A stretch of 38,500 nt of DNA from a virus, in IMG/VR virus record IMGVR_UViG_3300031521_000177, positions 1 to 38,500 of that record, one strand, 5' to 3'. Positions 910 through 38,500 of the stretch are shown here, piece by piece (the first letter of the stretch is position 1; each line of letters begins with the position of its first letter). Below the pieces are notes generated by a model. That model saw only the letters and a list, made by a program, of their open reading frames with translations, was not told the origin of the DNA and did not search any database. Made by a program: the position numbers and the translations under genes.

Positions 910-1337
910 AGCCATTCGCCGTCAAGCCATTCAGCCCGAAGCGAGTGCGTGCCAAGGCAGTTGACCGGGAGGGCCTGGAGCAGGCCGCGCTGATGAAAGA
1001 GATCAGCCTGCGCTACCCGGCCGCTGCCAAGTTGATCTTCCACGTCCCGAACGGCGGTCACCGGCACAAGCTGGTGGCGATCAAGCTGAAAGAGCAGGGC
1101 GTCAAGGCCGGCGTGCCTGACCTGGTGCTGCCGATGGCCCGCGGCGGGTACTTCGGCCTGTACATCGAATTCAAGGCCCGTGCGCCGTATGACGCCGCCG
1201 TCTCCCCGGCCCAGGACGCATACCTACAGGCGCTGACCGATCAAGGTTACCTGGCCATCGTTTGCCGTGGGCACGTCGACGCGATTGAGGCCATCAGGGC
1301 CTACCTTCTTCAACCTCAAACCAAGGCCGCCGCATGA
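906..1337 (+). CDS. VRR-NUC domain nuclease
   Basis: A 143-residue protein beginning with GTG at 906, overlapping the previous stop. The core has the VRR-NUC pattern: HVPNGG near residue 45, then GVKAGVPDLVLP (catalytic Asp in PDL) and YIEFKA (Glu and Lys of the PD-(D/E)xK fold). VRR-NUC proteins cleave branched DNA; stand-alone phage versions are thought to act as Holliday-junction resolvases. The position between DUF1364 and a tyrosine recombinase fits a DNA-recombination cluster. Translation is coupled to the next gene (overlap 1334-1337). Confidence 0.88.
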   Translation: MKPFAVKPFSPKRVRAKAVDREGLEQAALMKEISLRYPAAAKLIFHVPNGGHRHKLVAIKLKEQGVKAGVPDLVLPMARGGYFGLYIEFKARAPYDAAVSPAQDAYLQALTDQGYLAIVCRGHVDAIEAIRAYLLQPQTKAAA

Positions 1338-2614
1338 CCCAGACACTGCTCACTTCGTTTACCGATGCAGAGATCCGGCGGCAGGCCGGAAATACCCATA
1401 TCCGTGACCTGCGGGATGCTCGGTACCCAGGCGTGTATTTCCGCTTCCATCAAAACCGTGAGCGCGGTACTTGGCACCTGGTAGTTGGCAAGAAGTGGGA
1501 GAAGATCGCTGGTTTTCCCGAGCTGCCGGTGAAGGGGTTAGTCAGCGCGCTGCCGAAGATCCGCGAACGCCTGGCAGCCGACCCGAAGGCATCAGCCGCC
1601 GCCGGCACGTTGCAGACCGCTGGCCAGTTGCTGGACTGGTTCACCGCCCGCCAGTCCGTTGACCGCAGCCTGTCGGCCAAGCGCCGCTCTACCAACACCT
1701 CGATCATCTCCTGCCACCTGAAGCCACGGCTCGCCGATCTGTCGGTGGAAGATGTGGACCGCTCGACACTCGATAAGCTGGTGATGTGGCCGATGCAGGC
1801 CGAAATGTCGCTGTCCTACGTCCGCCTGATGTGGGGCGTACTGGTGGTCGCGTTCCGCCAGGCCGAGAAACTGCGGCTGATCACCACCAACCCCATCGCC
1901 GGGTTCAAGTTCACCGACTTCACCAAGGCCCGCATCCAACCCAAGCCATCACGTCTGCGCGCCGTCCAGCTCGAGGAAGTGATCGGGCAATTGGCCGCCG
2001 GCTTCGACCAACACCCTCAGGACTGCATGCTGGCCATGATGATGTTGTGCCACGGCACACGCTCCGGGGAGACCAGGCAGGCCCAATGGTCGCACCTGAC
2101 CGTGGGCGAGCAGGGTGAGTGGTTCATCCCCACCGAGAACACCAAGACCCGCTGCGAGCATCACCTGCCGCTGACCCATCAGGTATGCGCTCTGCTTGAG
2201 CGGTACCGGGATTGGCAGGAGGCCAAGGGCTACAAGGGCACCTACATGTTCCCGGCTCGCAGCCGTGGCCCGATCAGCGACAGCCAGGCCTGCGCCGTGT
2301 TCACCCGGCTGGGTAAGGGCGAGTGGACCAGCCATGACTTACGCAAGGTTGCCCGCACTGGCTGGACAGACCTGGGCGTCGACTTCCTCATTGGCGAGAT
2401 GCTGGTCAACCACACGATGACCCGCAACGTGCAGACCTACATCCACACCTCTGCGGAGCTGCTCAAGCGTGAGGCTTTGAACAAGTGGCATGAATGGTTA
2501 GACGGGAAGGGCTTCAACCTGATTCACCGCTCGACCATGACTAGAAACGGAAATTCGCACAATGGCGCCGAGGCCTTGAGTGGCGCGGCCTCTAGCCAAA
2601 TCCAGAAACCATAA
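1334..2614 (+). CDS. Tyrosine recombinase inside the nin-like region
   Basis: A 426-residue tyrosine recombinase with all six catalytic positions visible: R243 (HGTRSGE), K271 (NTKTRCEHH), H334 and R337 (SHDLRK), H360 (LVNH) and nucleophile Y369 (QTYIHT). An N-terminal Arm-type DNA-binding region and a SAM-like core-binding region precede the catalytic domain. It lies among replication and recombination genes on the + strand, about 28 kb from the attachment site and from the second integrase at 29696-30745. It is therefore unlikely to be the main integrase. Dimer resolution, or an alternative site-specific recombination such as DNA inversion, are possible roles; neither is shown by the sequence. 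Confidence 0.9.
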   Translation: MTQTLLTSFTDAEIRRQAGNTHIRDLRDARYPGVYFRFHQNRERGTWHLVVGKKWEKIAGFPELPVKGLVSALPKIRERLAADPKASAAAGTLQTAGQLLDWFTARQSVDRSLSAKRRSTNTSIISCHLKPRLADLSVEDVDRSTLDKLVMWPMQAEMSLSYVRLMWGVLVVAFRQAEKLRLITTNPIAGFKFTDFTKARIQPKPSRLRAVQLEEVIGQLAAGFDQHPQDCMLAMMMLCHGTRSGETRQAQWSHLTVGEQGEWFIPTENTKTRCEHHLPLTHQVCALLERYRDWQEAKGYKGTYMFPARSRGPISDSQACAVFTRLGKGEWTSHDLRKVARTGWTDLGVDFLIGEMLVNHTMTRNVQTYIHTSAELLKREALNKWHEWLDGKGFNLIHRSTMTRNGNSHNGAEALSGAASSQIQKP

Positions 2615-4253: not shown

Positions 4254-4592
4254 TTTTAACTGCAGCCAGGGCAGCCCTCGGGAGGCCTGGACGCTGATAA
4301 GCCGGTAGTGCAGCGCTACGGAAAAACACCGGCAGCCCGCGCGCCCTGACCTAACACGCTTTCAGGGTGGCGCGAGACAGGAGCAGCGAGATCGATGCAC
4401 TTGGGTGTCGACGCCGTGATGGTCTTTGGCTGGCAGCGTGGGAAGACACGCAAGTTATGCGGATGCAGAGCCCGGCGGAAACGTGCAGGGGTAACAGTCA
4501 GCGTGGGGACTGGAGGGAAGCGCCACGACAGCAATCTGAAAGGGTTGCGATCCGCACCTATTCAGGGCCTCGACATTGATCGAGGCCTTTTC
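4254..4592 (+). ncRNA. Putative structured non-coding leader RNA
   Basis: About 340 bases without a convincing gene but rich in hairpins. GCCGG at about 4299 pairs with CCGGC at about 4329 around an inner GTAG/CTAC stem. A long stem CGCGCGCCCTGA / TCAGGGTGGCGCG spans about 4337-4374. GCGTG-GGAAGA-CACGC lies near 4436. CGTGG / CCACG brackets about 4502-4528. The region ends in a strong terminator. It matches no RNA family I can name. By position it may be the leader of the late transcript, comparable to the lambda 6S RNA region, or a stand-alone phage RNA. Small reading frames inside it lack ribosome sites. Confidence 0.4.
4566..4591 (+). terminator. Rho-independent terminator
   Basis: Perfect 8-bp stem GGCCTCGA / TCGAGGCC with loop CATTGA followed by TTTTCGTTTT. 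It closes the structured RNA region. Confidence 0.85.
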
Positions 4593-7244: not shown

Positions 7245-9189
7245 AGCGCGTCGCTACGCGGAGGGTCATGCCGCCCTGAAAACGGGGCTGCTTAAAGCCC
7301 GCCGCCGCAACATACAGCCGCCACCGAAGCTGACACTCAGCCAGTGGGCGGCCGAGCACGCAAGGCTATCCGGTGAAACAAGCGCCCAGACAGGCAGATT
7401 TCATGCGTTCCCATACCAGAACGGGATCATGGACGCGATCACAGACCCCACGGTCGAAATGGTCACGGTGCAAAAGTCGGCGCGGGTTGGTTACACCAAG
7501 ATCATGGACCATGCTGCAGGGTTCTTTATTCACCAGGACCCGGCCCCCGTTCTTGTTGTTCAGCCCCGGGTAGAGGATGCGGAAGACTACAGCGTCACTG
7601 AAATCGAGCCGATGCTCCGTGATACTCCGGTGCTGAAGGAGATCGTTGGGGACCTCAAGAAGAAGGACTCCAAGCAAAAGATCAACAAGCGGATGTTCCG
7701 CAACGGCGCTTCGATGGCATTCGTTGGCGCGAACAGCCCTGGCGGCTTTCGGCGTATCACCGCACGCGTGGTGATGTTCGATGAGGTCGACGGCTATCCC
7801 GTAATGGGCGCGGGCAAGGAAGGTGACCAGATCAAGCTGGGCATCAAGCGGACTGAAAGCTTCTGGAACCGGAAAATCATCATGGGCAGCACGCCCACGG
7901 TGAAGGGCGAAAGCCGGATTGAAAAGAGCTACGCGAACAGCGACCAGCGCAAATACTTTGTCCCGTGCCCGCACTGTGGCGAATACCAGGTGCTGGAGTG
8001 GGGTGGCCCAGACACTCCCTACGGCATGAAATGGGATAAGGACGAGAGCGGCGTCGGAATTCCCGAAAGCGTGTTCTACGTCTGCAAGGCCACCGGCTGC
8101 GTTATCCATGAAATTGATAAAGACGAAATGGTCGAGCGGGGCGAGTGGCGGGCGACTAAGCCATTTACAGGCCATGCCGGCTTTCACATCTGGGCTGGCT
8201 ATAGTCTTTTCGTCAACGCTGCCTGGCACAAGCTGGTAGCGGAGTGGCTGGAGGTCAAAGACGATCCGCTGATGCGGCAGACCTTCGTCAACCTGGTGCT
8301 GGGCGAAACCTACGAAGACCGCGGCGATCGTGCTCTACAGGAAGACAAGCTGGCCGCGCGCTGCGAAGTATGGGGTGCCGAGGTCCCTGACGGCGTTGCT
8401 GTTGTGACGGTAGGTGTCGATACCCAAGGCGATCGCTTTGAATGCGAGGTCGTCGGCTGGGGGATGAACGAAGAAAGCTGGTCGATCGACTTCGAAATTA
8501 TTTCCGGCGATATGGAAACACCAGATATCTGGAGCCGGCTCGACGCCTATCTGAAACGTATCTGGTACCGCGCAGACGGCCGTGGCTTTGAAGTTATGGC
8601 GGTTTGTCACGACTCTGGCGGTCACCACACACAGAAGGTTTACGACTTTGCCAAGGCTCGCATTGGTCGCCGCGTCTGGGCCATCAAGGGTGAATCTGCA
8701 GTCGGCGGTAAGCGTTCTCCAGTGTGGCCGACCAAAACACCGAGCAAGCGGAACAAATCGTCTTTTCGTCCCGTGATCATCGGCGTCAACGCTGCCAAAG
8801 ACTCGGTTCGTTCGCGGCTTCACCTGGTCGAGAAAGGCGCGGGCTACATGCACTTCCCGGTCGACCGCGACATCAACTATTTCGCGCAACTGACATCGGA
8901 GCGTTCTGTCCGAAAAACCTCCGGGGGGCAGCATTACCGGGTTTGGGAATTGCCGCCGGGGCGCGCGAACGAAGCGCTCGACTGCCGCGTGTACGCCTAT
9001 GCCGCGCTCTGTGGCTTGTTGCACCTCGGACTCAAGCTGAATAAGCGCGCCGACGAGGTGAACGCCTTGATTGGATTGCCGCTTCAACAACCGCCCGAGC
9101 AGGTGCCGCAAGTTCTCGAAGCGGTGGTGCAACGTGCTGCCCCTGAAAAATCATCGTCCCGAAAGTCGTCGATCTCACGCATGGCGTAG
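7219..9189 (+). CDS. Terminase large subunit (lambda gpA family)
   Basis: A 656-residue packaging ATPase and cos nuclease. The N-terminal ATPase shows the lambda-type deviant Walker A QKSARVGYTK (residues 85-94) and Walker B VVMFDEVDGY (184-192). A CxxC pair (CPHCGEY, near 252) follows, then the nuclease domain with an acidic start VGVDTQGDRFE near residue 400 and CHDSGGHHT near 463. Length matches the family (lambda gpA 641). The start is GTG 7219 inside the end of terS. With TerS and the preceding region it indicates cos-type packaging. Confidence 0.96.
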   Translation: MTEKGSADEARRYAEGHAALKTGLLKARRRNIQPPPKLTLSQWAAEHARLSGETSAQTGRFHAFPYQNGIMDAITDPTVEMVTVQKSARVGYTKIMDHAAGFFIHQDPAPVLVVQPRVEDAEDYSVTEIEPMLRDTPVLKEIVGDLKKKDSKQKINKRMFRNGASMAFVGANSPGGFRRITARVVMFDEVDGYPVMGAGKEGDQIKLGIKRTESFWNRKIIMGSTPTVKGESRIEKSYANSDQRKYFVPCPHCGEYQVLEWGGPDTPYGMKWDKDESGVGIPESVFYVCKATGCVIHEIDKDEMVERGEWRATKPFTGHAGFHIWAGYSLFVNAAWHKLVAEWLEVKDDPLMRQTFVNLVLGETYEDRGDRALQEDKLAARCEVWGAEVPDGVAVVTVGVDTQGDRFECEVVGWGMNEESWSIDFEIISGDMETPDIWSRLDAYLKRIWYRADGRGFEVMAVCHDSGGHHTQKVYDFAKARIGRRVWAIKGESAVGGKRSPVWPTKTPSKRNKSSFRPVIIGVNAAKDSVRSRLHLVEKGAGYMHFPVDRDINYFAQLTSERSVRKTSGGQHYRVWELPPGRANEALDCRVYAYAALCGLLHLGLKLNKRADEVNALIGLPLQQPPEQVPQVLEAVVQRAAPEKSSSRKSSISRMA

Positions 9190-18053: not shown

Positions 18054-20081
18054 GTGGCCAATAGCTTCACGATCACGATCAGCGCGGTGGATAAAGCCAC
18101 GGCGACCGTGCGCAAGGTCAATGATGCTATTGGTCGCCTGACTCGTCCGTTCGAAGAGGTTGGCAAGTCCTTTAAAGGCCTCGGTCACGAACTGGGTTTC
18201 GACAAGATCGGCAAAAACCTCAGCAACATCGGGCGTGACGCAGGGAGCGCAGCACGCAGCATCGGCAACATCGTTGCGCCGCTGGCTGCCGTTACTGGCA
18301 TTGGTTCGGTCGCCGGTATTGCAGCGCTCGCTGATAACTGGGCACACCTGGGACGGTCCATCGATAACAGCGCGCGCGGTATAGGGATATCTGCAGGTCA
18401 ATTGCAAAGCGCCCAGGGGGCAGCGAAGTTGTTGGGTATTGATGCCTCGACGACCACGGCCAGCCTGGATGGATTGGCTACCACAATGCAGGACGCACAG
18501 TGGGGCCGTAATCAGGGCGCGCTGGTGATGCTCAACAAGCTGGGTATCGGCTTGAAAAAGACCAAGGACGGTGCCAATGACGTGATTGGCGAATACAAGG
18601 CAGTGGCCAACGCTATCGCCAAGGAAACTAACCCGCAGGTCCAGGCGCTGATCGCCAACAGTGTCGGTCTTGGTGCAATGCTGCCTTTCCTTCGGGATGG
18701 CGCGGCGGGCATCGAGCGATATGAAAGCATGGTCAAGAGTTTGGGCTATGTCATGGGTGATGACGCCGTTAAACGCGGCAAAGAATTCTCTATGAGCCTG
18801 GCGGGGCTAGGAATCGCGGTGGATGGGGTGAAAAACTCCATTGGCGACAAGCTGATTCCGGTCATGCAGCCCTTAATCGATCAGTTTTCAACTTGGCTTG
18901 CGACCAATAGGGATTTGATTGCTACCGACATTGGCGATTGGGCAAAGGGCTTTGCCAAATGGGTCAACACTATCGACTGGAAGGGCGTCGGCGATGGTCT
19001 CGTCAAGTTTGGTGAGGGTATTGGAAAAGTTGTTGGCTTTCTCGGTGGCTGGGAAAACGCCGCGCTGCTTGTCCTAGGAGTGATGAACGCAGGCTTGATT
19101 GTCAGTGTGCTGTCCCTGGGCGCAAACCTATTGACCGCTGGTGCAGGGGTTTTGGCCTTCACTGGGCTTCTCAGCGGCTGGAAGGTTGCCGCAGCGGAGG
19201 CTGGCGCGGCTACAGAGGCTGCAGCGGCGAGTCGAGGCTTGCTCGGCTGGATCGGCGCCGGCACAGCTGCAGTCGGGACGGGTATAGGTGCAATGCTTTA
19301 TTCGCCGACGCTAAATGACGGAGAAGACAAGGAAGTAGCCAAGATCCGTGCGCGCCAAGGCCTTGCGCCTACAGGCTCGCAAACGCCTGGTCAGCAAGCT
19401 GGCGAGCGGGCAATTTCAGATGCTTGGAGAAAGTTGAAGGGGGCTGACGAGGATACCGCGTCTTTTGCGATGGACTATCTCCGATCCATGGGATGGACCA
19501 AGGCGCAAGCTGCCGGGATCGTCGGCAATGGCATCGCCGAAAGTAATCTTGACCCCAAGGCGACTGGCGACTGGGGGCTGACCGGCCCCACTGCGCGGGG
19601 GATCTTCCAGCTACACCCTGACCGTCAAAAGGACTTTGAAAACTGGGCTGGTTTCAAGATCACTGATGATCGGGCTGACCGCCTGAAGCAGCTTGAATTT
19701 GCCAACTACGAACTAACTCAAGGCAAGGAAGCCTCTGCGGGTAAATTGCTGATGGGCGCTACTGATGCGCAGTCTGCCGGTGAAATTGCTTCGCGCCGCT
19801 GGCTGCGTCCTGGTCTGGATGACGAAGCGAAGGCCAGGGAAGCCGCAACGCGTGGCGCATTGGCCAATCAATTGGATCTTCCTCAGCTAGCACCAACTGG
19901 ACCATACACCAAACCGGCTGACCCTAGTGATGGTGCAGCCGCTGGTAATACTGGCGGGACAGTGAAGGTCGAAATCGAACACAAGAACATGCCGGAAGGC
20001 ACGAAGGTCAACGTGAAGGCGGATGGCAACGTCCAGGCATCCAGCCGCATTGCGCATTCTGGAGTGGGGAACATCGCATGA
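18054..20081 (+). CDS. Tape measure protein with C-terminal tail-lysozyme domain
   Basis: A 675-residue protein setting tail length. The N-terminal half has the usual SFTITISAVDKATATVRKVN opening, Gly/Ala-rich helical repeats and hydrophobic spans near residues 345-370. Residues about 470-600 resemble the phage tail lysozyme domain (MDYLRSMGWTKAQAAGIVGN, then AESNLDPKATGDWG, ARGIFQLHPDR), with a Glu in the GIAESN segment that would be catalytic. It would cut peptidoglycan during entry. GTG 18054 follows AAAGGGG at good spacing. It is short for a tape measure, suggesting a tail of about 100 nm by the usual 0.15 nm per residue rule. Confidence 0.92.
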   Translation: MANSFTITISAVDKATATVRKVNDAIGRLTRPFEEVGKSFKGLGHELGFDKIGKNLSNIGRDAGSAARSIGNIVAPLAAVTGIGSVAGIAALADNWAHLGRSIDNSARGIGISAGQLQSAQGAAKLLGIDASTTTASLDGLATTMQDAQWGRNQGALVMLNKLGIGLKKTKDGANDVIGEYKAVANAIAKETNPQVQALIANSVGLGAMLPFLRDGAAGIERYESMVKSLGYVMGDDAVKRGKEFSMSLAGLGIAVDGVKNSIGDKLIPVMQPLIDQFSTWLATNRDLIATDIGDWAKGFAKWVNTIDWKGVGDGLVKFGEGIGKVVGFLGGWENAALLVLGVMNAGLIVSVLSLGANLLTAGAGVLAFTGLLSGWKVAAAEAGAATEAAAASRGLLGWIGAGTAAVGTGIGAMLYSPTLNDGEDKEVAKIRARQGLAPTGSQTPGQQAGERAISDAWRKLKGADEDTASFAMDYLRSMGWTKAQAAGIVGNGIAESNLDPKATGDWGLTGPTARGIFQLHPDRQKDFENWAGFKITDDRADRLKQLEFANYELTQGKEASAGKLLMGATDAQSAGEIASRRWLRPGLDDEAKAREAATRGALANQLDLPQLAPTGPYTKPADPSDGAAAGNTGGTVKVEIEHKNMPEGTKVNVKADGNVQASSRIAHSGVGNIA

Positions 20082-25896: not shown

Positions 25897-27195
25897 ATGT
25901 ATCAAATTGATAACTCGTCTGTTGCGCCGCTACTCCCGGCCAGCACCTCGCCGGGTACTGTGGGGTTCTTCACAGACGGCAACCCAGCGACGGGCGCAGC
26001 TCCGACGATTCTCCCCGCCGAATTTATGAACATGCTCATGATGGAGAATCTCAACGTTTTGGCCGCCGGCGGAATAACCCCGGCAAAAGGGCAATACAAC
26101 CAGTTGGCTCTGGCGATTGCCAAAATTGTTCAAAGTAGTGCGGCCGGCCAAGCCAGCGAGACAGCCGCCGGCATCTTGAAGCTGTCGACGAATCCGCAAG
26201 CTATCGCAGGGACTGATGACTCCACTGCCATCACTCCACTTAAGCTTGCTCAAAAGCTAGCCAATTATATCGGACAAGCGACGGAGACCGCTTTCGGTTG
26301 GTTGAAGATCGCCACACAGACCATTGTCAACGCCGGCGTTGATGACGCAGCCGCTGTTACTGCAAAGAAACTCGCAAATGCTACCCAGTCCCAGGCCTTT
26401 ACCGCGTTTACAACTTCTGGCGTTCCTGGTGCGCTTACGCTCGCTCCGGTTCCAGCGATTTCCGCATACGCAGCTCCGCTGCGATTTCGGGTGAAGTTCA
26501 GCCAGAACAGTACCGGTAACGACACCATTAACGTGTCCGGAAGGGGCACCCAGAACCTTAAACAGTACGACTCGACTGGCGCCAAGGTAGCTGCAGTATT
26601 TGCTGTGGGCCAGCTCGGCGACATTGAATACGACGGCACTGATTTTGTATTACGTGATCCGTTACCGCCGACAGTCGCGGCCGATCCCTGGCTTTACCAG
26701 CCAGTGGGTGTGCCCATCGCTGTGTTTGATAATATCGCAGGTGTAAGCCAGCCACCGACCAACAACAGCGCTTACCGCTATATCAAGATGACGGCTGCAG
26801 ACGCTTACAACACCGGAGTGCTAACTTCTGAGAGCGTCACGGGTTCGGCACCACTTGTTATTGCAACGGCTGTTGTAAGTTTGTCCGGCAGCCCAATCAA
26901 TGGGCAAACAGTGCAACTTATCAACACTGAGCGGCGCAGTTTGCGCGCGGGTAACAGCGGTGGGATTGAGGCCGACCAAGGGCATGGCCATCGCCATTCG
27001 CCGCTTAGCCCTGCAACAGCATTCATATCGCTAAGTTCGGCACAAAGCTGGCAGCTCCCAGCTCCAGCGAGCGGCATCGGGCAGTCGGCTACGACAGGCG
27101 ACCCCGTCACTGACGGCACAAACGGTGCTCCGCGCATCGGCAATGAGACCCGCTCTAAAAACATCGGTGTCACTTACTATATGAGAGTCAAATAA
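25897..27195 (+). CDS. Tail fibre protein
   Basis: A 432-residue receptor-binding fibre. The N-terminus (GTVGFFTDGNPATGAAPTIL ... EFMNMLMMENLNVL) attaches to the baseplate. Two degenerate fibre repeats are visible, ETAAGILKLSTNPQAIAGTD and ETAFGWLKIATQTIVNAGVD, each followed by an AxTxxKLA segment. The C-terminal third (residues about 270-432) is beta-rich with HGHRHS and ends in NETRSKNIGVTYYMRVK, a typical fibre tip ending. It is not a C-type lectin fold. Host range would be set by this part. Confidence 0.88.
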   Translation: MYQIDNSSVAPLLPASTSPGTVGFFTDGNPATGAAPTILPAEFMNMLMMENLNVLAAGGITPAKGQYNQLALAIAKIVQSSAAGQASETAAGILKLSTNPQAIAGTDDSTAITPLKLAQKLANYIGQATETAFGWLKIATQTIVNAGVDDAAAVTAKKLANATQSQAFTAFTTSGVPGALTLAPVPAISAYAAPLRFRVKFSQNSTGNDTINVSGRGTQNLKQYDSTGAKVAAVFAVGQLGDIEYDGTDFVLRDPLPPTVAADPWLYQPVGVPIAVFDNIAGVSQPPTNNSAYRYIKMTAADAYNTGVLTSESVTGSAPLVIATAVVSLSGSPINGQTVQLINTERRSLRAGNSGGIEADQGHGHRHSPLSPATAFISLSSAQSWQLPAPASGIGQSATTGDPVTDGTNGAPRIGNETRSKNIGVTYYMRVK

Positions 27196-29695: not shown

Positions 29696-30745
29696 CTATT
29701 TTGACGGCTTCGCGGTAGCGCCAATCCTCCTGTAAACCCGCTTGGTAATTTCCTGCTGGCTATGCCCCAGCAGCAGGCTTGCGTCACCAATATCGACGAT
29801 TTCCGATGCCGCCTTTGGCCGGATATCGCGAAACTGAAACCCGCCAATCTTCGCGGCGAGCATCTGGTCTCCCTGATCGATTGCTTTTTGCTGCGCCTTG
29901 TCCCGCGCCTTGTCCCAGCGCAAGCGCAACATCCCCTTCGTCATCCTCTTGCCATGCTTGCTGATCAGCAGATACTTGGAAGGGTGGTGTGCATTCCTCT
30001 CCGTTATCTCCCTAATCAATTTCCCCAAACTGTTTTCCCCTGCCTCCGTGCGCATAAGAATCCTGAGCTTCAGCTTTGTCTTCCCTTGCGTAACCAGGAA
30101 GTAATCCCCCTCAGTGTCATCACTGCGCATGACGATCACGTCGGCCGGCCGCTGACCCGTCAGGTAGCCCAAGTCCATGGCTTCCTTGAGCTCTGGCTCT
30201 GCCATCCCGTAGACCGCATCCCAAACTGCCGCGTTGGCGTAGTAGTCGCGTGGAGTTTCCTTGTTCTTCCGAATGCCCTGGCACGGGTTCTCCCGTTCGG
30301 TAAGACCCCATTCCCGGGCCAGGTTGAATACGTGGGAGAGCAGGGCAATTTCCCGGTTGGCCCGAACCTTTGCGGTGCGCGCATCGCGGTACCCAGCAAT
30401 ATTGGCTGGCGTGATTGAGTCGATGGGCGCCCCGTCGAACATGGGACGCAGTTGTTTTAGCTCGGCCAGGTTGTCTTTCTGGGTGCGCTCGCCTTTTTTT
30501 GGTATGACGTCGCGCTCGTAGCGATCAAAGATTCCCTTCATCATGGTTAGATCGCAGGGCTTGTCCTTGGCTTCAAGCTCGGCCCACTTCAGCCGCGCTT
30601 TGTCCAAATCCTTGCCCAGCGGCACGTCCTTTCCGGTTGCGTCTCGGTAGTAGAACGCGGTCCAGGTAGTGCCGTTTTTACGCTTCCTTGTGCGCTGATA
30701 CATGCGCGGGGGTAGGTGTCGGTATTCCTTGTTTCGAGGACGCAT
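29696..30745 (-). CDS. int: Phage integrase (tyrosine recombinase) adjacent to attP
   Basis: A 349-residue integrase with an N-terminal basic arm-binding segment (RTRKRKNGTTWTAFYYRDAT), a core-binding region and a catalytic domain. Catalytic positions: R199 (LTGQRPADV), K222 (QGKTKLK), R309 (FRDIRPKAAS, with Arg306 where His is usual), H328 (LLGHSQ) and nucleophile Y338 (RVYRRIG). The His-to-Arg change occurs in many phage integrases. Lying next to the tRNA-Ser core, it is the enzyme expected to integrate at that tRNA gene. It follows the DUF4224 gene by one base gap. Confidence 0.93.
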   Translation of the reverse strand: MRPRNKEYRHLPPRMYQRTRKRKNGTTWTAFYYRDATGKDVPLGKDLDKARLKWAELEAKDKPCDLTMMKGIFDRYERDVIPKKGERTQKDNLAELKQLRPMFDGAPIDSITPANIAGYRDARTAKVRANREIALLSHVFNLAREWGLTERENPCQGIRKNKETPRDYYANAAVWDAVYGMAEPELKEAMDLGYLTGQRPADVIVMRSDDTEGDYFLVTQGKTKLKLRILMRTEAGENSLGKLIREITERNAHHPSKYLLISKHGKRMTKGMLRLRWDKARDKAQQKAIDQGDQMLAAKIGGFQFRDIRPKAASEIVDIGDASLLLGHSQQEITKRVYRRIGATAKPSK

Positions 30746-34153: not shown

Positions 34154-34222
34154 TCAGCAAATCAGTTGTGCCAGTGCCAGTGCCAGCAGGCACCAGCAGT
34201 AGGCGGGTAGTTGAGCTTTCAT
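34154..34222 (-). CDS. Minute hydrophobic peptide with repeated LA codons
   Basis: A 22-codon frame encoding MKAQLPAYCWCLLALALAQL and then IC. Its ATG overlaps the stop of the PAPS-reductase-like gene as ATGA. The core is a membrane-like run built from repeated GCACTG codons. It could be a tiny membrane peptide or a decayed signal sequence. Confidence 0.35.
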   Translation of the reverse strand: MKAQLPAYCWCLLALALAQLIC

Positions 34223-34992
34223 GGCTGATCTTCCTGAGCGATATCGGCCTCGGCCATCTCGCAGAAGAACGAGCAGGAAGGGATTTTCTCATTACGCCGC
34301 ACAGGGCCATCGCCCAGGTTGCGCAGGGAAAACCGCACATTGGTGTCGCGGTTGCGATGGAGGTAGCTTCCTGGTCCAAGCTCGTCTTGAACCTTGCAAA
34401 GCTCTTCGAACTGCTCAGGGAAGTCCTCGCGAATCGCTCGATAATAGCCCTCTCCACCCTTTACGCAGCCGATGCAGTTAGCGTTGTCATAGCCGAGTCG
34501 GTACATCATCGGAAGTACAATTCCAGCCCGCATAACCATAGCCTTGCAGTCCTCTTTTCCCAGGCCCGCGTCAATGAGAGGGGCAATAACGGGGCGATCA
34601 GGGTTCCGGTCCCTGAAGTCATCCAGGCGGTCAACCTCTTCGGCGGTGTAGCCGAACACCATTACGTCGCCCGGTTGCTTCCATGCATCGAGCAGGCGAC
34701 GTTTCAGAAGCTTGGTGCAGGGCGCTCCGTTTCGGCCCTTCATGAACCTCTCGCGCCGAAACACCTGGATGATGTCCGCGTCGTACTTCTCGTCCTTTAG
34801 CTGAGTTATGTCCTGGTCAAACCACGCTTGGCAGTCCAGCAGAAAGCGCCGGCTGTCTTCATGCTCATTGGCCAAGAACGCATTGATGATTTGCACGTCA
34901 TGCGTGGCGCCGTATTGAGCTAGCGCCAGCTTGGTGGCCACCGCCGAGGCAGCTCCGCAGCTGAACTGGCAGACAATGCGCGGGTTATTCAT
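34219..34992 (-). CDS. PAPS-reductase-like (adenine nucleotide alpha hydrolase) protein
   Basis: A 257-residue protein of the PP-loop ATPase superfamily. The loop is a variant, CQFSCGAASAVATKLAL (residues 8-24), where SGGxDS is usual. Cysteines occur in GAPCTKLLKRRLLD, NCIGCVKGG and CSFFCEMAE, possibly for an Fe-S cluster. The middle segment DVMVFGYTAEEVDRLDDF is typical of the phage members. ATG 34992 is taken; the longer frame to 35145 lies over the upstream gene. Known relatives include PAPS reductases and DndC-like DNA-modification enzymes. Its presence near a DNA methyltransferase suggests nucleotide or DNA modification, which is inference only. Confidence 0.75.
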   Translation of the reverse strand: MNNPRIVCQFSCGAASAVATKLALAQYGATHDVQIINAFLANEHEDSRRFLLDCQAWFDQDITQLKDEKYDADIIQVFRRERFMKGRNGAPCTKLLKRRLLDAWKQPGDVMVFGYTAEEVDRLDDFRDRNPDRPVIAPLIDAGLGKEDCKAMVMRAGIVLPMMYRLGYDNANCIGCVKGGEGYYRAIREDFPEQFEELCKVQDELGPGSYLHRNRDTNVRFSLRNLGDGPVRRNEKIPSCSFFCEMAEADIAQEDQP

Positions 34993-35260
34993 CGCCACCA
35001 CCCTCCGCTGGCTTGAGTGCGGTAAACACCTCACCGCGAATCGCATCAATCTCCGAAGACGGCACCGCTCCCGGGTCACCCTGGATCTCATAGAGCAACT
35101 CGTTTGTCTGGAGCAGCAACCCCTCCAGCATATCCGCCCGTTCATCCGCTGCGGTCAGCAGAACCTGCAGTGCGTCACGCTCGCGGATCGCCTGAGCGTG
35201 CTTGCTGCGCCAGTGCAGCACGGCGTCGAGATCTTCCTTGGACTGGTTCAAATTACTCAT
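34985..35260 (-). CDS. Hypothetical coiled-coil early protein
   Basis: A 91-residue helical protein (KEDLDAVLHWRSKHAQAIRE; TAADERADMLEGLLLQTNEL) with an acidic Gly tail. It overlaps the PAPS-reductase-like start by eight bases. A GGA ribosome site precedes its ATG. No known family. Confidence 0.6.
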   Translation of the reverse strand: MSNLNQSKEDLDAVLHWRSKHAQAIRERDALQVLLTAADERADMLEGLLLQTNELLYEIQGDPGAVPSSEIDAIRGEVFTALKPAEGGGDE

Positions 35261-35331: not shown

Positions 35332-35562
35332 ATGACCAAGCACGATATTTACGATGAGATCGAAGGCTTTCAGGTTTGGAACTACATGGAATGCGACAAG
35401 GACGATGAGGGCCGGGAGACCTGGCGTATCAACGTCGAGATAAAGCGTGGTGGTGAAGTGGTAGTGCCTGTTGTTGCGGGTGACCGAACCTATGTCGACC
35501 GTGGCCTGGCGCAGGTCGCTGGGCGTGAGGTGGGGACCAGGCTGATTGCAGAGCGCGTTTAA
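35332..35562 (+). CDS. Hypothetical protein (+ strand, within the early operon)
   Basis: A 76-residue soluble protein starting MTKHDIYDEIEGFQVWNYME, with a beta-rich middle (TWRINVEIKRGGEVVVPVVA). ATG 35332 is preceded by GGGCAGGA; the ATG at 35320 lies in the putative promoter. It is antisense to the operon and ends four bases into the methyltransferase stop region. No family is recognised. Confidence 0.6.
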   Translation: MTKHDIYDEIEGFQVWNYMECDKDDEGRETWRINVEIKRGGEVVVPVVAGDRTYVDRGLAQVAGREVGTRLIAERV

Positions 35563-37607
35563 GCTGCAACCGCCTGACGCTCAGCCATTCGCCATGGGTC
35601 ATTGGCGCGTGCCAGCGCAGCCATCGGCGGTGGGCTGACGCTGTTGCCGCACATGTGCACCTGCTGAGTCTTGGTGAACGGCTTGCCGTCGGCGCCGTGG
35701 CTGATGATGTAGTCGGCCGGGAACCCTTGGGCCTTGTACAGCTCAGTCGGTTTCAGCATCCGTAAGCAGATGTCGACGATCACGTATGGCGTGCCTTTCA
35801 CCATTACGGTGACCATTGCGAGGCGGTCCTTGGTGGTGATGGTCGGTGCTGGCGCGTCACAGGCGCTTGTGTTCTCGGTGCCGTAGTAGCTGATCAGGAA
35901 GGCGGCGACGCGAAGGGCGCCGGCTTCATGCTCTGGCGACAGTGTGAGCGATACCAGGGAACTCTTGCCGCCGCCACCGGCAGTGATGGTCGGCGCCGGA
36001 TCATCCAGGCCCTGGCCCACGCTGGCGCCGAATGCCCGCTCCATGAATGCGCTCACCAGCCCGTGGTGCTGGCCGCCGGCACTGACGGTGTGCAGCGGGT
36101 CGTTCACGTCCCGTGCATCGCAGTTGCCGCGCAGGTGCACCAGGTTCGCCACCGCCAGTTGCTGCTGGCTTCCGGTGTTGGTGACCGTCGTCATGGGTTC
36201 GTGCATGCCCTTGGCGTGCGTGGTATTGAATCCGCCGTTGGCCTGAATCATCACCGCGGTGCTGATGGATTGGCCGCCGCCGCTGGCTGTAACGGTACCG
36301 ATCGGCCCGCATATATCGTTCACCCCGTGGGAGCGCCGTTTGTTTGCGCCGGAGCCCTCGCCGTGCCCGGCCTGGACGATGCAGGCCGATGCGACGGCGC
36401 GATGGCTGCGAGTCATAAGAGTGCCGATCGGCTGGTCTGCTGATACCGGGTGCCCGGCGTACACCGGGCCGCCCGCACCGACCATGACTGGACTGATCAG
36501 CGTCAGTTCGCCACGGTTGGCACAGGTCACCGTCGGCAGCGGCTTAAGCGGGTCATTAATGCGGTCGCTGCCCTGGTGGGTTGCTGGTGCGATCACCGGG
36601 CTGACCACCGAGAAGGCGCCGCCCTTCGGGTAGGAGGTGATGGTCCGCAGCGGCTCATCGGCCGACTGCACTGTCAGCCCTGACCAGTTGGCGATCGGCA
36701 CAATGAACGGGGCAGCGCTGTCGATAACGAACTTCTTCATGCCCTTGGCTACGCGGCGCAGAGTGGCCGGTGCCAGGTCTTTCTTGCGGCCGAAGATGCT
36801 TTTGCCCAGGTCGGTGAAGTCGATGCAGTCAGCAGCGGTTTTCCACTTCTGCTGGCCATTGGTAGGGTTCTTGGCGTGGGTTGGCTCCGGCCACACGATG
36901 GGCTGGCCGTCGCACCGGGCGATCATGAACAGGCGTTCCCGGCTGGTTGGCGCGCCGAAGTCGCAGGCCTTGATCACCTTCCACTCAACCACGTAACCCA
37001 TGGCTTCCAGCAGGGCTACAAAGCGGCGCCATGTGCGGCCGCGCTGCTTCGGGTCAGGGATCAGGAACTGCTGGCCCACCGGCACAACTTCACCAGGTGC
37101 TGCAATCTCGCCGCCGAGTTTCACCACGCGGCCGGTGGCCTTGTCACGCTTGGCTATCAAGCGGCCCCATTGCAGGATCTGTTTCACGTTTTCCAGGCTG
37201 ATCACCCGGGGGCGCTTTATGCCTGCCCACTTGAGGCCGATCCACGACAGGTTGCGGATCTCGCGCTTGCGCGGCTGGCCGCCGGCCGCTTGGGAGTGGT
37301 GCGTGCAGTCCGGCGACATGTGGAACCAGCCTACGGCCTTACCGCCACACTCGGCGTCCGGGTCACCTTCGAACACGTCGGTGGTGAAGTGCTGGGCGCC
37401 TGGGTGGTTGACGGTGTGCATGCTGATGGCCTGCGGGCTGTGGTTCTTCGCCACGTTCACCGCGCGGCCCAGGCCCATTTCCAGCCCGGTACCGGCACCG
37501 CCACCACCACAGAAGAAGTCGACAACGATCTCATCGTCCTGAGGGTTGAAGCCGAGTCCGTATTGGGTTTTGAAATCGAAGGGGTGTTTCTTCTGTTGTG
37601 CGGACAT
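35559..37607 (-). CDS. C5-cytosine DNA methyltransferase with repeat-filled target-recognition region
   Basis: A 682-residue DNA cytosine-5 methyltransferase. Motif I is VDFFCGGGGAGTG (29-41), the catalytic motif is SPDCTHHS (98-105, with Cys101; classical enzymes have PPC), ENV is at 139-141, SRERLFMIA at 222-230, and the C-terminal GNSVSPP at 654-660. Residues about 318-605 hold some eight degenerate copies of a DxPxxTVTxxGxxxLV-type unit. Bacterial relatives of normal length are about 350-450 residues, so most of the extra length is this array. It likely protects phage DNA from host restriction. GAGGATC lies ahead of ATG 37607. Confidence 0.9.
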   Translation of the reverse strand: MSAQQKKHPFDFKTQYGLGFNPQDDEIVVDFFCGGGGAGTGLEMGLGRAVNVAKNHSPQAISMHTVNHPGAQHFTTDVFEGDPDAECGGKAVGWFHMSPDCTHHSQAAGGQPRKREIRNLSWIGLKWAGIKRPRVISLENVKQILQWGRLIAKRDKATGRVVKLGGEIAAPGEVVPVGQQFLIPDPKQRGRTWRRFVALLEAMGYVVEWKVIKACDFGAPTSRERLFMIARCDGQPIVWPEPTHAKNPTNGQQKWKTAADCIDFTDLGKSIFGRKKDLAPATLRRVAKGMKKFVIDSAAPFIVPIANWSGLTVQSADEPLRTITSYPKGGAFSVVSPVIAPATHQGSDRINDPLKPLPTVTCANRGELTLISPVMVGAGGPVYAGHPVSADQPIGTLMTRSHRAVASACIVQAGHGEGSGANKRRSHGVNDICGPIGTVTASGGGQSISTAVMIQANGGFNTTHAKGMHEPMTTVTNTGSQQQLAVANLVHLRGNCDARDVNDPLHTVSAGGQHHGLVSAFMERAFGASVGQGLDDPAPTITAGGGGKSSLVSLTLSPEHEAGALRVAAFLISYYGTENTSACDAPAPTITTKDRLAMVTVMVKGTPYVIVDICLRMLKPTELYKAQGFPADYIISHGADGKPFTKTQQVHMCGNSVSPPPMAALARANDPWRMAERQAVAA

Positions 37608-37649: not shown

Positions 37650-38500
37650 CTATTTCTTCTGGTAGGTCTTGGTCAGCGCCGCGTTGACGCTGTTGCCGCG
37701 CTTCAGCACGACGCGGGCGAGTGCTGCCCGGTCTTTGTGGCTATGGCTGGCCTGGCTGAGCAGGCCGAAGTAGCTGTTGGCTGTCTCGCGCAGATCCTCG
37801 GCCGGCGCCGCAGCGGTTCGCTTCAGCGCCTGGGCAAGCGACCGCTTGCGAGTCGAGCGCCGCCAAGGCTTGATCACATGCCCAACGAAGTCGACGCCGC
37901 GATCCACGGGCTGCAGGATCGTCTTGGTGGGGTTCAGCTTGGCACCGAGCCTGGGCAGGAACTCTTCGACCTCAGCCAGCCACTGGTTGAGCTGCTGTGG
38001 CGACTCATGTAGGAACACGAAGTCGTCGACGTAGCGGATGTAGTGCTTGGCGCGCAGGTGGTGCTTGGCGAACTGGTCCAGGGCGTCGAGATAGACGTTG
38101 GCGAAGAACTGCGACGACAGGTTTCCGATCGGCAGACCGAGGTGAGCAGGCTGTGCCACCAGGCGCTTGTGCTGCGGTACACGGTTGAATAGGTGCGCTG
38201 GGCTGCGGGTCTCGTAATCCTCGCGCGGGTCGTGCATGAGGATCTGCGTGGCCAGGGCCAGCCACCAGGGTTCGGTGATCCTGGCTTCCAACTGCTTGCG
38301 CAGCACCGCCTTGTCGATGGCGACGAAGAAGTTGGCCAGGTCGCACTTGAGGTAGAAGATCGGCTTTGACCAGTTCTGCGAGGCGCTGCGGATCTTCGAC
38401 TCAAGGCGCTTGGCGGCGTACAGCGTGCCGCGCCCTGGAATGCATGCGCAACTGTCCGCTATGAAGCTGGCGTAGAAGCGCGGTGCCACATGGTTGTACA
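37650..38500 (-). CDS. Reverse transcriptase, DGR-type signature, 5' truncated by the window
   Basis: The visible 280 or so residues form most of a reverse transcriptase. The frame continues past the GTG at 38489 to the window edge (residues Y-N-H precede), so the N-terminus is missing. Motif A is YLKCDLANFF, motif 4 region GLPIGNLSSQFFANVYL, catalytic YVDD in HYIRYVDDFVFLH, then VDFVGHVIKP and a C-terminal GLLSQASHSHKD. The IGNxxSQ in place of QGxxxSP is characteristic of diversity-generating retroelement enzymes. No TR or Avd lies downstream: only 42 bases separate it from the methyltransferase. Alternatives are a defence-type or unclassified phage reverse transcriptase. Confidence 0.85.
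   Translation of the reverse strand, partial: YNHVAPRFYASFIADSCACIPGRGTLYAAKRLESKIRSASQNWSKPIFYLKCDLANFFVAIDKAVLRKQLEARITEPWWLALATQILMHDPREDYETRSPAHLFNRVPQHKRLVAQPAHLGLPIGNLSSQFFANVYLDALDQFAKHHLRAKHYIRYVDDFVFLHESPQQLNQWLAEVEEFLPRLGAKLNPTKTILQPVDRGVDFVGHVIKPWRRSTRKRSLAQALKRTAAAPAEDLRETANSYFGLLSQASHSHKDRAALARVVLKRGNSVNAALTKTYQKK

Follow-up and report, generated by a model that had tools for sequence, protein, structure and literature searches.

Anatomy and adenine-specific variation of a complete diversity-generating retroelement carried by a phage outside its tail genes

Diversity-generating retroelements (DGRs) of phages are mostly understood as systems that vary tail proteins, thereby letting phages follow receptors. 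The best-described case is BPP-1 (mtd-avd-TR-brt), for which a hairpin after the variable repeat (VR) is described in the available text of PMC3240598. According to the accessible portions of the survey by Roux et al. (PMC8144416), the well-studied targets of phage DGRs are all receptor-binding tail proteins; viral clades 1, 4 and 6 have mostly tail targets, and clade 3 is mixed. The commonest DGR genera include Pseudomonas and Burkholderia, and DUF1566 is a common target domain (PMC6642488, available text). DGRs with two VRs from P. fluorescens WH6, R. pickettii 12J and Burkholderia were included in the DiGReF list of 2012, which also holds a class in which the template repeat (TR) overlaps the end of the reverse transcriptase (RT) gene; the accessible text of that paper reports that attempts to link DGRs to prophages failed (PMC3521204). 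DGRs and two-target Pseudomonas DGRs are already known, and the notable part of the system described here is its tail-independent setting in an early operon. A literature search of the available article texts found no account of a phage DGR that keeps to the repressor-integrase arm whatever the tail type.

The truncated RT gene and the complete cassette

The window is the whole stretch of DNA analysed, namely, the 38,500 bases of IMG/VR record IMGVR_UViG_3300031521_000177. The features of the window that concern the DGR and its surroundings are as follows:

37650..38498, minus strand: DGR reverse transcriptase, C-terminal 282 codons, with IGNLSSQ and YVDD motifs
35559..37607, minus strand: C5-cytosine DNA methyltransferase, directly downstream of the RT in the same operon, not part of the DGR
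29696..30745, minus strand: tyrosine integrase, downstream on the RT's strand, at the far end of the left operon
25897..27195, plus strand: tail-fibre-type protein matching tail-fibre PHROGs; without a VR, so no DGR target

The DGR-like RT reported in the initial annotation on the basis of IGNLSSQ and YVDD is real, with a minus-strand frame running from 38498 to 37650 and a protein that matches Pfam RVT_1 (E 2.7e-16). In the ORF analysis, the frame was open at the window end and its 5′ part was missing; the gene is truncated solely because the record stops there, and the window itself lacks a TR because the record ends. The template gave 0 matches as a DNA query against the window, and no VR of >60% identity was found in the window when both strands were scanned at non-adenine template positions. 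The fibre was correctly described as having neither a C-type lectin end nor a repeat pair: it matched tail-fibre PHROGs and no Pfam family, a lectin domain was undetected, and the window scans for VR were empty. The methyltransferase noted beside the RT lies on the same strand and is of the C5-cytosine type (Pfam DNA_methylase, E 4.4e-24; also phrog_116). A cytosine methylase is also found near the RT in phages Haboob and QDWS, and Cruim01 has a 'DNA methyltransferase' there. The integrase carries an integrase profile match at 29726-30193 and matches phrog_1 (E 6.6e-33). Sheath and baseplate are encoded by the window's phage (PHROG matches), a temperate phage with a contractile tail and probably a Pseudomonas host.

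Four side observations were made in the window. The methyltransferase has 682 aa, compared with 324-329 positions in the family models, with a long middle between the conserved parts. A phosphoadenosine phosphosulfate reductase-like gene (34219-35145, minus strand; phrog_424, E 3e-47) lies in the RT's operon. A second tyrosine recombinase (1334-2614, plus strand; Phage_integrase 63 bits, phrog_1) is present at the start of the right arm, and two recombinases also occur in several relatives, about 10-11 kb on the DGR's other side on the opposite strand. The Rfam Proteo-phage-1 RNA (RF03044) was detected at 4260-4337 on the plus strand (82 bits; gathering score 42).

The missing part was recovered from a near-identical contig, L002, which differs from the window by 1 mismatch in 10,848 aligned bases (99.99%) and extends 8 kb further. 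Positions (p) in L002 were converted to the window axis (w) by w = 46500 - p. The following features of L002 lie beyond the window edge:

L002:7652-7751 (window axis about 38749-38848): template repeat, 100-nt core
L002:7087-7479 (window axis 39021-39413): Avd-like gene, between targets and template
L002:6481-7068 (window axis 39432-40019): target ORF, VR at 3′ end
L002:5884-6360 (window axis 40140-40616): target ORF, VR at 3′ end
L002:3831-4364 (window axis 42136-42669): target ORF, VR at 3′ end

That the template, Avd and variable gene lie just right of the window had been proposed as one of two alternatives, and all of them are present in L002. A 147-base family occurs there in four direct copies, of which the copy adjacent to the RT is the template and the other three terminate ORFs. 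According to the L002 coordinates, the TR core would start about 250 nt past the window edge; the VR cores begin 3399, 1406 and 695 nt upstream of it, and the full-length RT frame ends at 8850. The near-repeats proposed for this region were found as three VRs differing from the TR at adenines only: 11, 14 and 10 of the 29 adenines were changed, and 0/71 of the other bases, within the 100-base core. The expected lectin-fold target is represented by three target ORFs of an Lcl_C/C-type-lectin-like family; individually, two are without a Pfam match and the third matches Lcl_C below cut-off, and all three match phrog_4245, a PHROG of unknown function. As judged from sequence, the cassette is a complete DGR that has two or three targets and shows adenine-specific change. 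Contrary to what had been stated, the early operon is not headed by the RT, which follows the repressor, targets and avd in L002 and its relatives.

The Avd-like gene expected to the right encodes a protein that exceeds the cut-off of bAvd (PF22296, 52 bits, E 1.1e-13, cut-off 40) and matches phrog_3206, 'Avd protein of DGR' (E 1.9e-28). It falls under the NCBIfam cut-off (NF033474, 48.8 bits vs 80), resembles BPP-1 Avd weakly (E 0.018) and had no match against PDB. The Rfam family RT-15 (RF03018) spans L002:7463-7652, and its end coincides with the start of the template core. RT-15 was present in 16/16 loci scanned outside the window (4 + 12), including Hydrogenophaga, Acidovorax and Comamonas MAGs; no VR was found at locus L144, yet it carries RT-15. 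Because of its adjacency to the template core, RT-15 may be the leader of the DGR template RNA, which gives this Rfam family a suggested role. A search of L002:2500-9200 for sigma-70-like promoters yielded 0 sites (shuffles 1.6).

The far end of L002's contig was considered as an overlap of the same phage and rejected, being a second DGR region of about 90% similarity, which is uninformative on change within one phage. This region (L091, about 18108-20000; 57640-59532 of L002's record) ends inside the template, and L027, from a sample shared with L002's record, begins just inside an RT; the contigs therefore seem to break at these repeats.

Genomic setting and nature of the targets

The position of the cassette was compared among relatives. 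In 38/40 records the TR is preceded, 4.3-13.3 kb upstream and on its own strand, by an S24 repressor; QDWS would be a 39th case if its map is read as a circle, and no S24 match was found in Magia. In 29 of the 40, an integrase follows on that strand within 12 kb. For three named phages (W03-W05) the TR positions were taken from annotation and are approximate, whereas those of the others come from the template and whole-record scans. In Haboob the order is repressor, glycosyltransferase, targets, four-helix protein, RT, methyltransferase, Bet and integrase, and the annotations of QDWS, Cruim01 and Magia agree with a setting in the repressor-integrase arm. The named phages with the cassette are Cruim01, Haboob, Magia, LPPA56 and QDWS. 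Shewanella phage QDWS (OK094664.1) and 'Hujiaoplasma phage zrk29-1' (OP650936.1) have equal length and an equal RT match, so one of the two host names is probably wrong.

Tail types differed among the carriers. In 41 records, Baseplate_J and the lambda-J family were each over cut-off in 18 (record counts, kinship ignored): 14 records had only Baseplate_J, 14 had only lambda-J, four contigs >70 kb had both and nine had neither. In a whole-record VR search of 36 records, all matches lay upstream of the TR, on its strand and within about 9.2 kb; the query detected at most one VR in nine of the 36, mostly of the other template type, and the search was not exhaustive. Within this search no VR was located in a tail or receptor-binding gene, and the window's sheath, baseplate and fibre genes are without VR.

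In total, 318 target frames were obtained, of which 304 encode 110-240 aa (median 201); the VRs of L039 and L147 yielded no target frame. Lcl_C was matched at E <= 0.01 by 35/52 and 42/58 members in two sets of targets, and both target profiles match the Legionella Lcl C-terminal chain (E 5e-6 and 1e-6). A target model with pLDDT 91 had the Legionella Lcl C-terminal domain as its best Foldseek match (E 6e-3, rmsd 8.7) and no match at E <= 0.001; a model of the second family (pLDDT 80, VR region <50) likewise gave no match at E <= 0.001. The targets are mostly stand-alone Lcl_C/C-type-lectin-like proteins, two or three per cassette. By crude, untrained heuristics, no lipobox was found in the 304 targets, a hydrophobic 19-residue window was found in 21 of them, the highest mostly with one N-terminal helix, and no export signal was seen in most.

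Constraint and residue bias were evident in these proteins. The constant parts have median dN/dS of 0.21 and 0.14 (593 and 459 non-independent pairs). Among 1412 AAY codons, Tyr, Gly, Leu and Thr exceeded expectation, Cys (3 vs 100 expected) and Arg (6 vs 44) were rare, and Ala and Pro were also short; the expected counts treat codon positions as independent, and rows from related phages are non-independent. The residue bias and the constraint suggest that target variants are filtered for function.

We consider it rather likely that this complete DGR of a temperate-phage early operon has hypervariable intracellular binders, not tail tips, as its targets. The cassette lies in the left (repressor-to-integrase) early operon, with which the targets are presumably expressed. 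RT and Avd would produce a copy of the adenine-rich template in which adenine positions receive random bases, and this mutated copy would replace the 3′ ends of the two or three upstream target genes; by analogy with BPP-1, the enzymology may be that of cDNA-mediated retrohoming. The targets would then be hypervariable binding proteins produced within the host cell, either from the prophage or at an early stage of infection. A non-virion and possibly intracellular role away from the tail is suggested mainly by the tail-independence of the cassette, and intracellular targets appear most likely because of the early-gene position, the unrelated tail modules and the lack of an obvious export signal. 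More tentatively, the DGR may maintain an antibody-like repertoire inside the host cell against fast-changing partners, for example proteins of host defence or rival phages.

The small lectin-like targets of a complete DGR could instead be virion adhesins or decorations, expressed from the left operon and carried on various kinds of tails or capsids, which we regard as unlikely. The C-type-lectin-like fold would suit such proteins, as would Lcl_C, the domain of a Legionella surface lectin; the Tyr- and Gly-rich VR codons suit binding surfaces, and virion proteins would also be expected to lack a signal peptide. The A2 target profile has a tail protein (9c2d_S, E 0.005) as its second-best, weak, solved match. 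However, no fibre or trimerising region was recognised in the targets, the cassette lies in the repressor-integrase arm away from tail genes, and it accompanies baseplate-J and lambda-J tails alike. Virion targets have precedents in Mtd of BPP-1 and in the viral DGR clades whose targets are tail proteins (PMC8144416, available text).

Adenine-specific variation and RT lineage

The cassette recurs in dozens of Pseudomonas and betaproteobacterial prophages. The best 80 of 545 RT relatives in IMG/VR were used, and L027 was left out of the template/variable scan owing to the lack of upstream sequence. The scan always takes the best template match, with a score of 0.64 for Magia and >=0.79 for the others. 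Among the 81 loci with upstream sequence (relatives being the best 80 of 545), 78 have at least two VRs and 15 have three, and 141/173 VRs show zero change at non-adenine core positions. In 156 distinct TR/VR pairs pooled from this first set, 2173/4877 adenines differed (44.6%), compared with 54/10,723 other bases (0.5%). A second set of 76 loci comprised 73 of 77 genome-contig loci (the partial loci L159, L160, L164 and L169 were left out) and three named phages; at least one VR was found in 67/76 and at least two in 64/76. The nine loci without VR were two with short upstream sequence, four with distant Patescibacteria/archaeal RTs, and L144, L148 and L149. Adenine-specific retrohoming is well supported by these sequence comparisons.

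A hairpin followed the VR in 101/173 cases, the TR in 6/81 and the VR in 13/173 mononucleotide shuffles; the commonest loops, CTTG and AGGAC, depart from the GRNA consensus. In 81/81 loci the RT frame stays open as far as into the TR, and the sole start codon common to all 81 sits inside the TR (+41). A translation start of the RT inside the TR is suggestive only, because the same bases encode a conserved target stretch.

Near-identical loci were used to evaluate recent change. The flanks of L023 and L031, two contigs of one IMG genome judging by their names, have 8 differences in 2596 bases, and their VRs differ at 13 + 19 positions, every one an adenine. L003 and L004 have 1 flank difference in 2593 bases, one identical VR and one heavily changed VR with a 3-base indel. 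Recent adenine-specific change is shown by the alignments of these two pairs. Among all 12 locus pairs >97% alike, nine have no adenine-position VR difference, one of them having two other differences; L047/L082 is a more distant pair among the 12. A single target at L036:7998-8474 appears to be a fusion, starting like one target family and ending like the other, and has a VR indel, which points to recombination between targets.

The nine unchanged pairs, the fused target of L036 with its indel and the VR indel of L004 would fit a decaying or silent DGR whose VR patterns are remnants of past activity. We hold this to be very improbable, given the two near-identical pairs that differ almost solely in VRs, the low dN/dS of the constant target parts and the intact RT motifs.

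The lineage of the RT was also examined. Among solved structures it is matched best by Brt of BPP-1 (8ub7_A, E 2.2e-37; identified as Brt by a full-length match, E 4.5e-230), compared with 7.7e-13 for a group II maturase. In a 32-row tree, from which five RT rows (fragments and mis-picked frames) had been dropped, the query RT grouped first with its own family, next with a Patescibacteria RT and after that with a set including Brt, and it was separate from most group II rows; one PQG-type row stood at the base of the DGR side, and several long branches were unsure. The phylogenetic placement called for earlier groups the RT with Brt on the DGR side. The locus combines this lineage with adenine-differing TR/VR pairs, Avd, a lectin-like C-terminal VR and a post-VR hairpin; it does not have an RT of a DRT/UG, Abi or retron lineage without TR/VR. 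The other role once considered, that of an RT from a defence system or another lineage (DRT/UG, Abi, retron or group II) without a DGR, is suggested by PADLOC UG4, UG17 and other profiles that match the RT fold and an NCBIfam group II match far under cut-off, and can be dismissed, since the best PADLOC match is the general RT model and the adenine-specific template/variable pairs, supported by Avd, the RT-15 leader and Brt kinship, refute it.

Comparison with known DGRs

The cassette family holds its position between repressor and integrase in phages whose tail genes differ, and it changes only small proteins encoded outside the tail cluster. If the targets act in the cell, these phages would hypermutate internal effectors, and targeted hypermutation would serve an internal arms race, not attachment. 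Carriers that have been sequenced (Cruim01, Haboob, Magia, LPPA56 and QDWS) make the question directly testable.

Compared with the BPP-1 DGR, the present system has the same order of target, avd, TR and RT, adenine-specific TR/VR differences and the post-VR hairpin, and its RT is 32% identical to Brt over 306 columns. However, mtd of BPP-1 encodes a tail protein and lies beside other tail genes, whereas two or three small lectin-like targets are found here in the repressor-integrase arm, an RT-15 leader is annotated before the TR, and the commonest hairpin loops are off the GRNA consensus. The multi-VR DGRs of WH6, 12J and Burkholderia in DiGReF come from the same genera and have two VRs per TR; judging by genera and VR number, they very likely belong to the same family, and in the accessible text they were not recognised as prophage early genes (PMC3521204). 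The DGRs of Thiohalocapsa PB-PSB1 also have C-lectin targets, several of them predicted to be cytoplasmic, according to the available text; there the genes are bacterial and linked to NACHT/MoxR conflict systems, whereas the targets here are phage-borne, stand-alone domains (PMC10907252). Another comparable system is that of Burkholderia phage Magia (MT701587), on which no paper was found in the literature search. In its annotation an Avd-like protein is named, and two proteins with a lectin fold are marked as possible targets of a DGR; the template scan gave a TR with three VRs, and its RT has only 65% identity to the RT described here.
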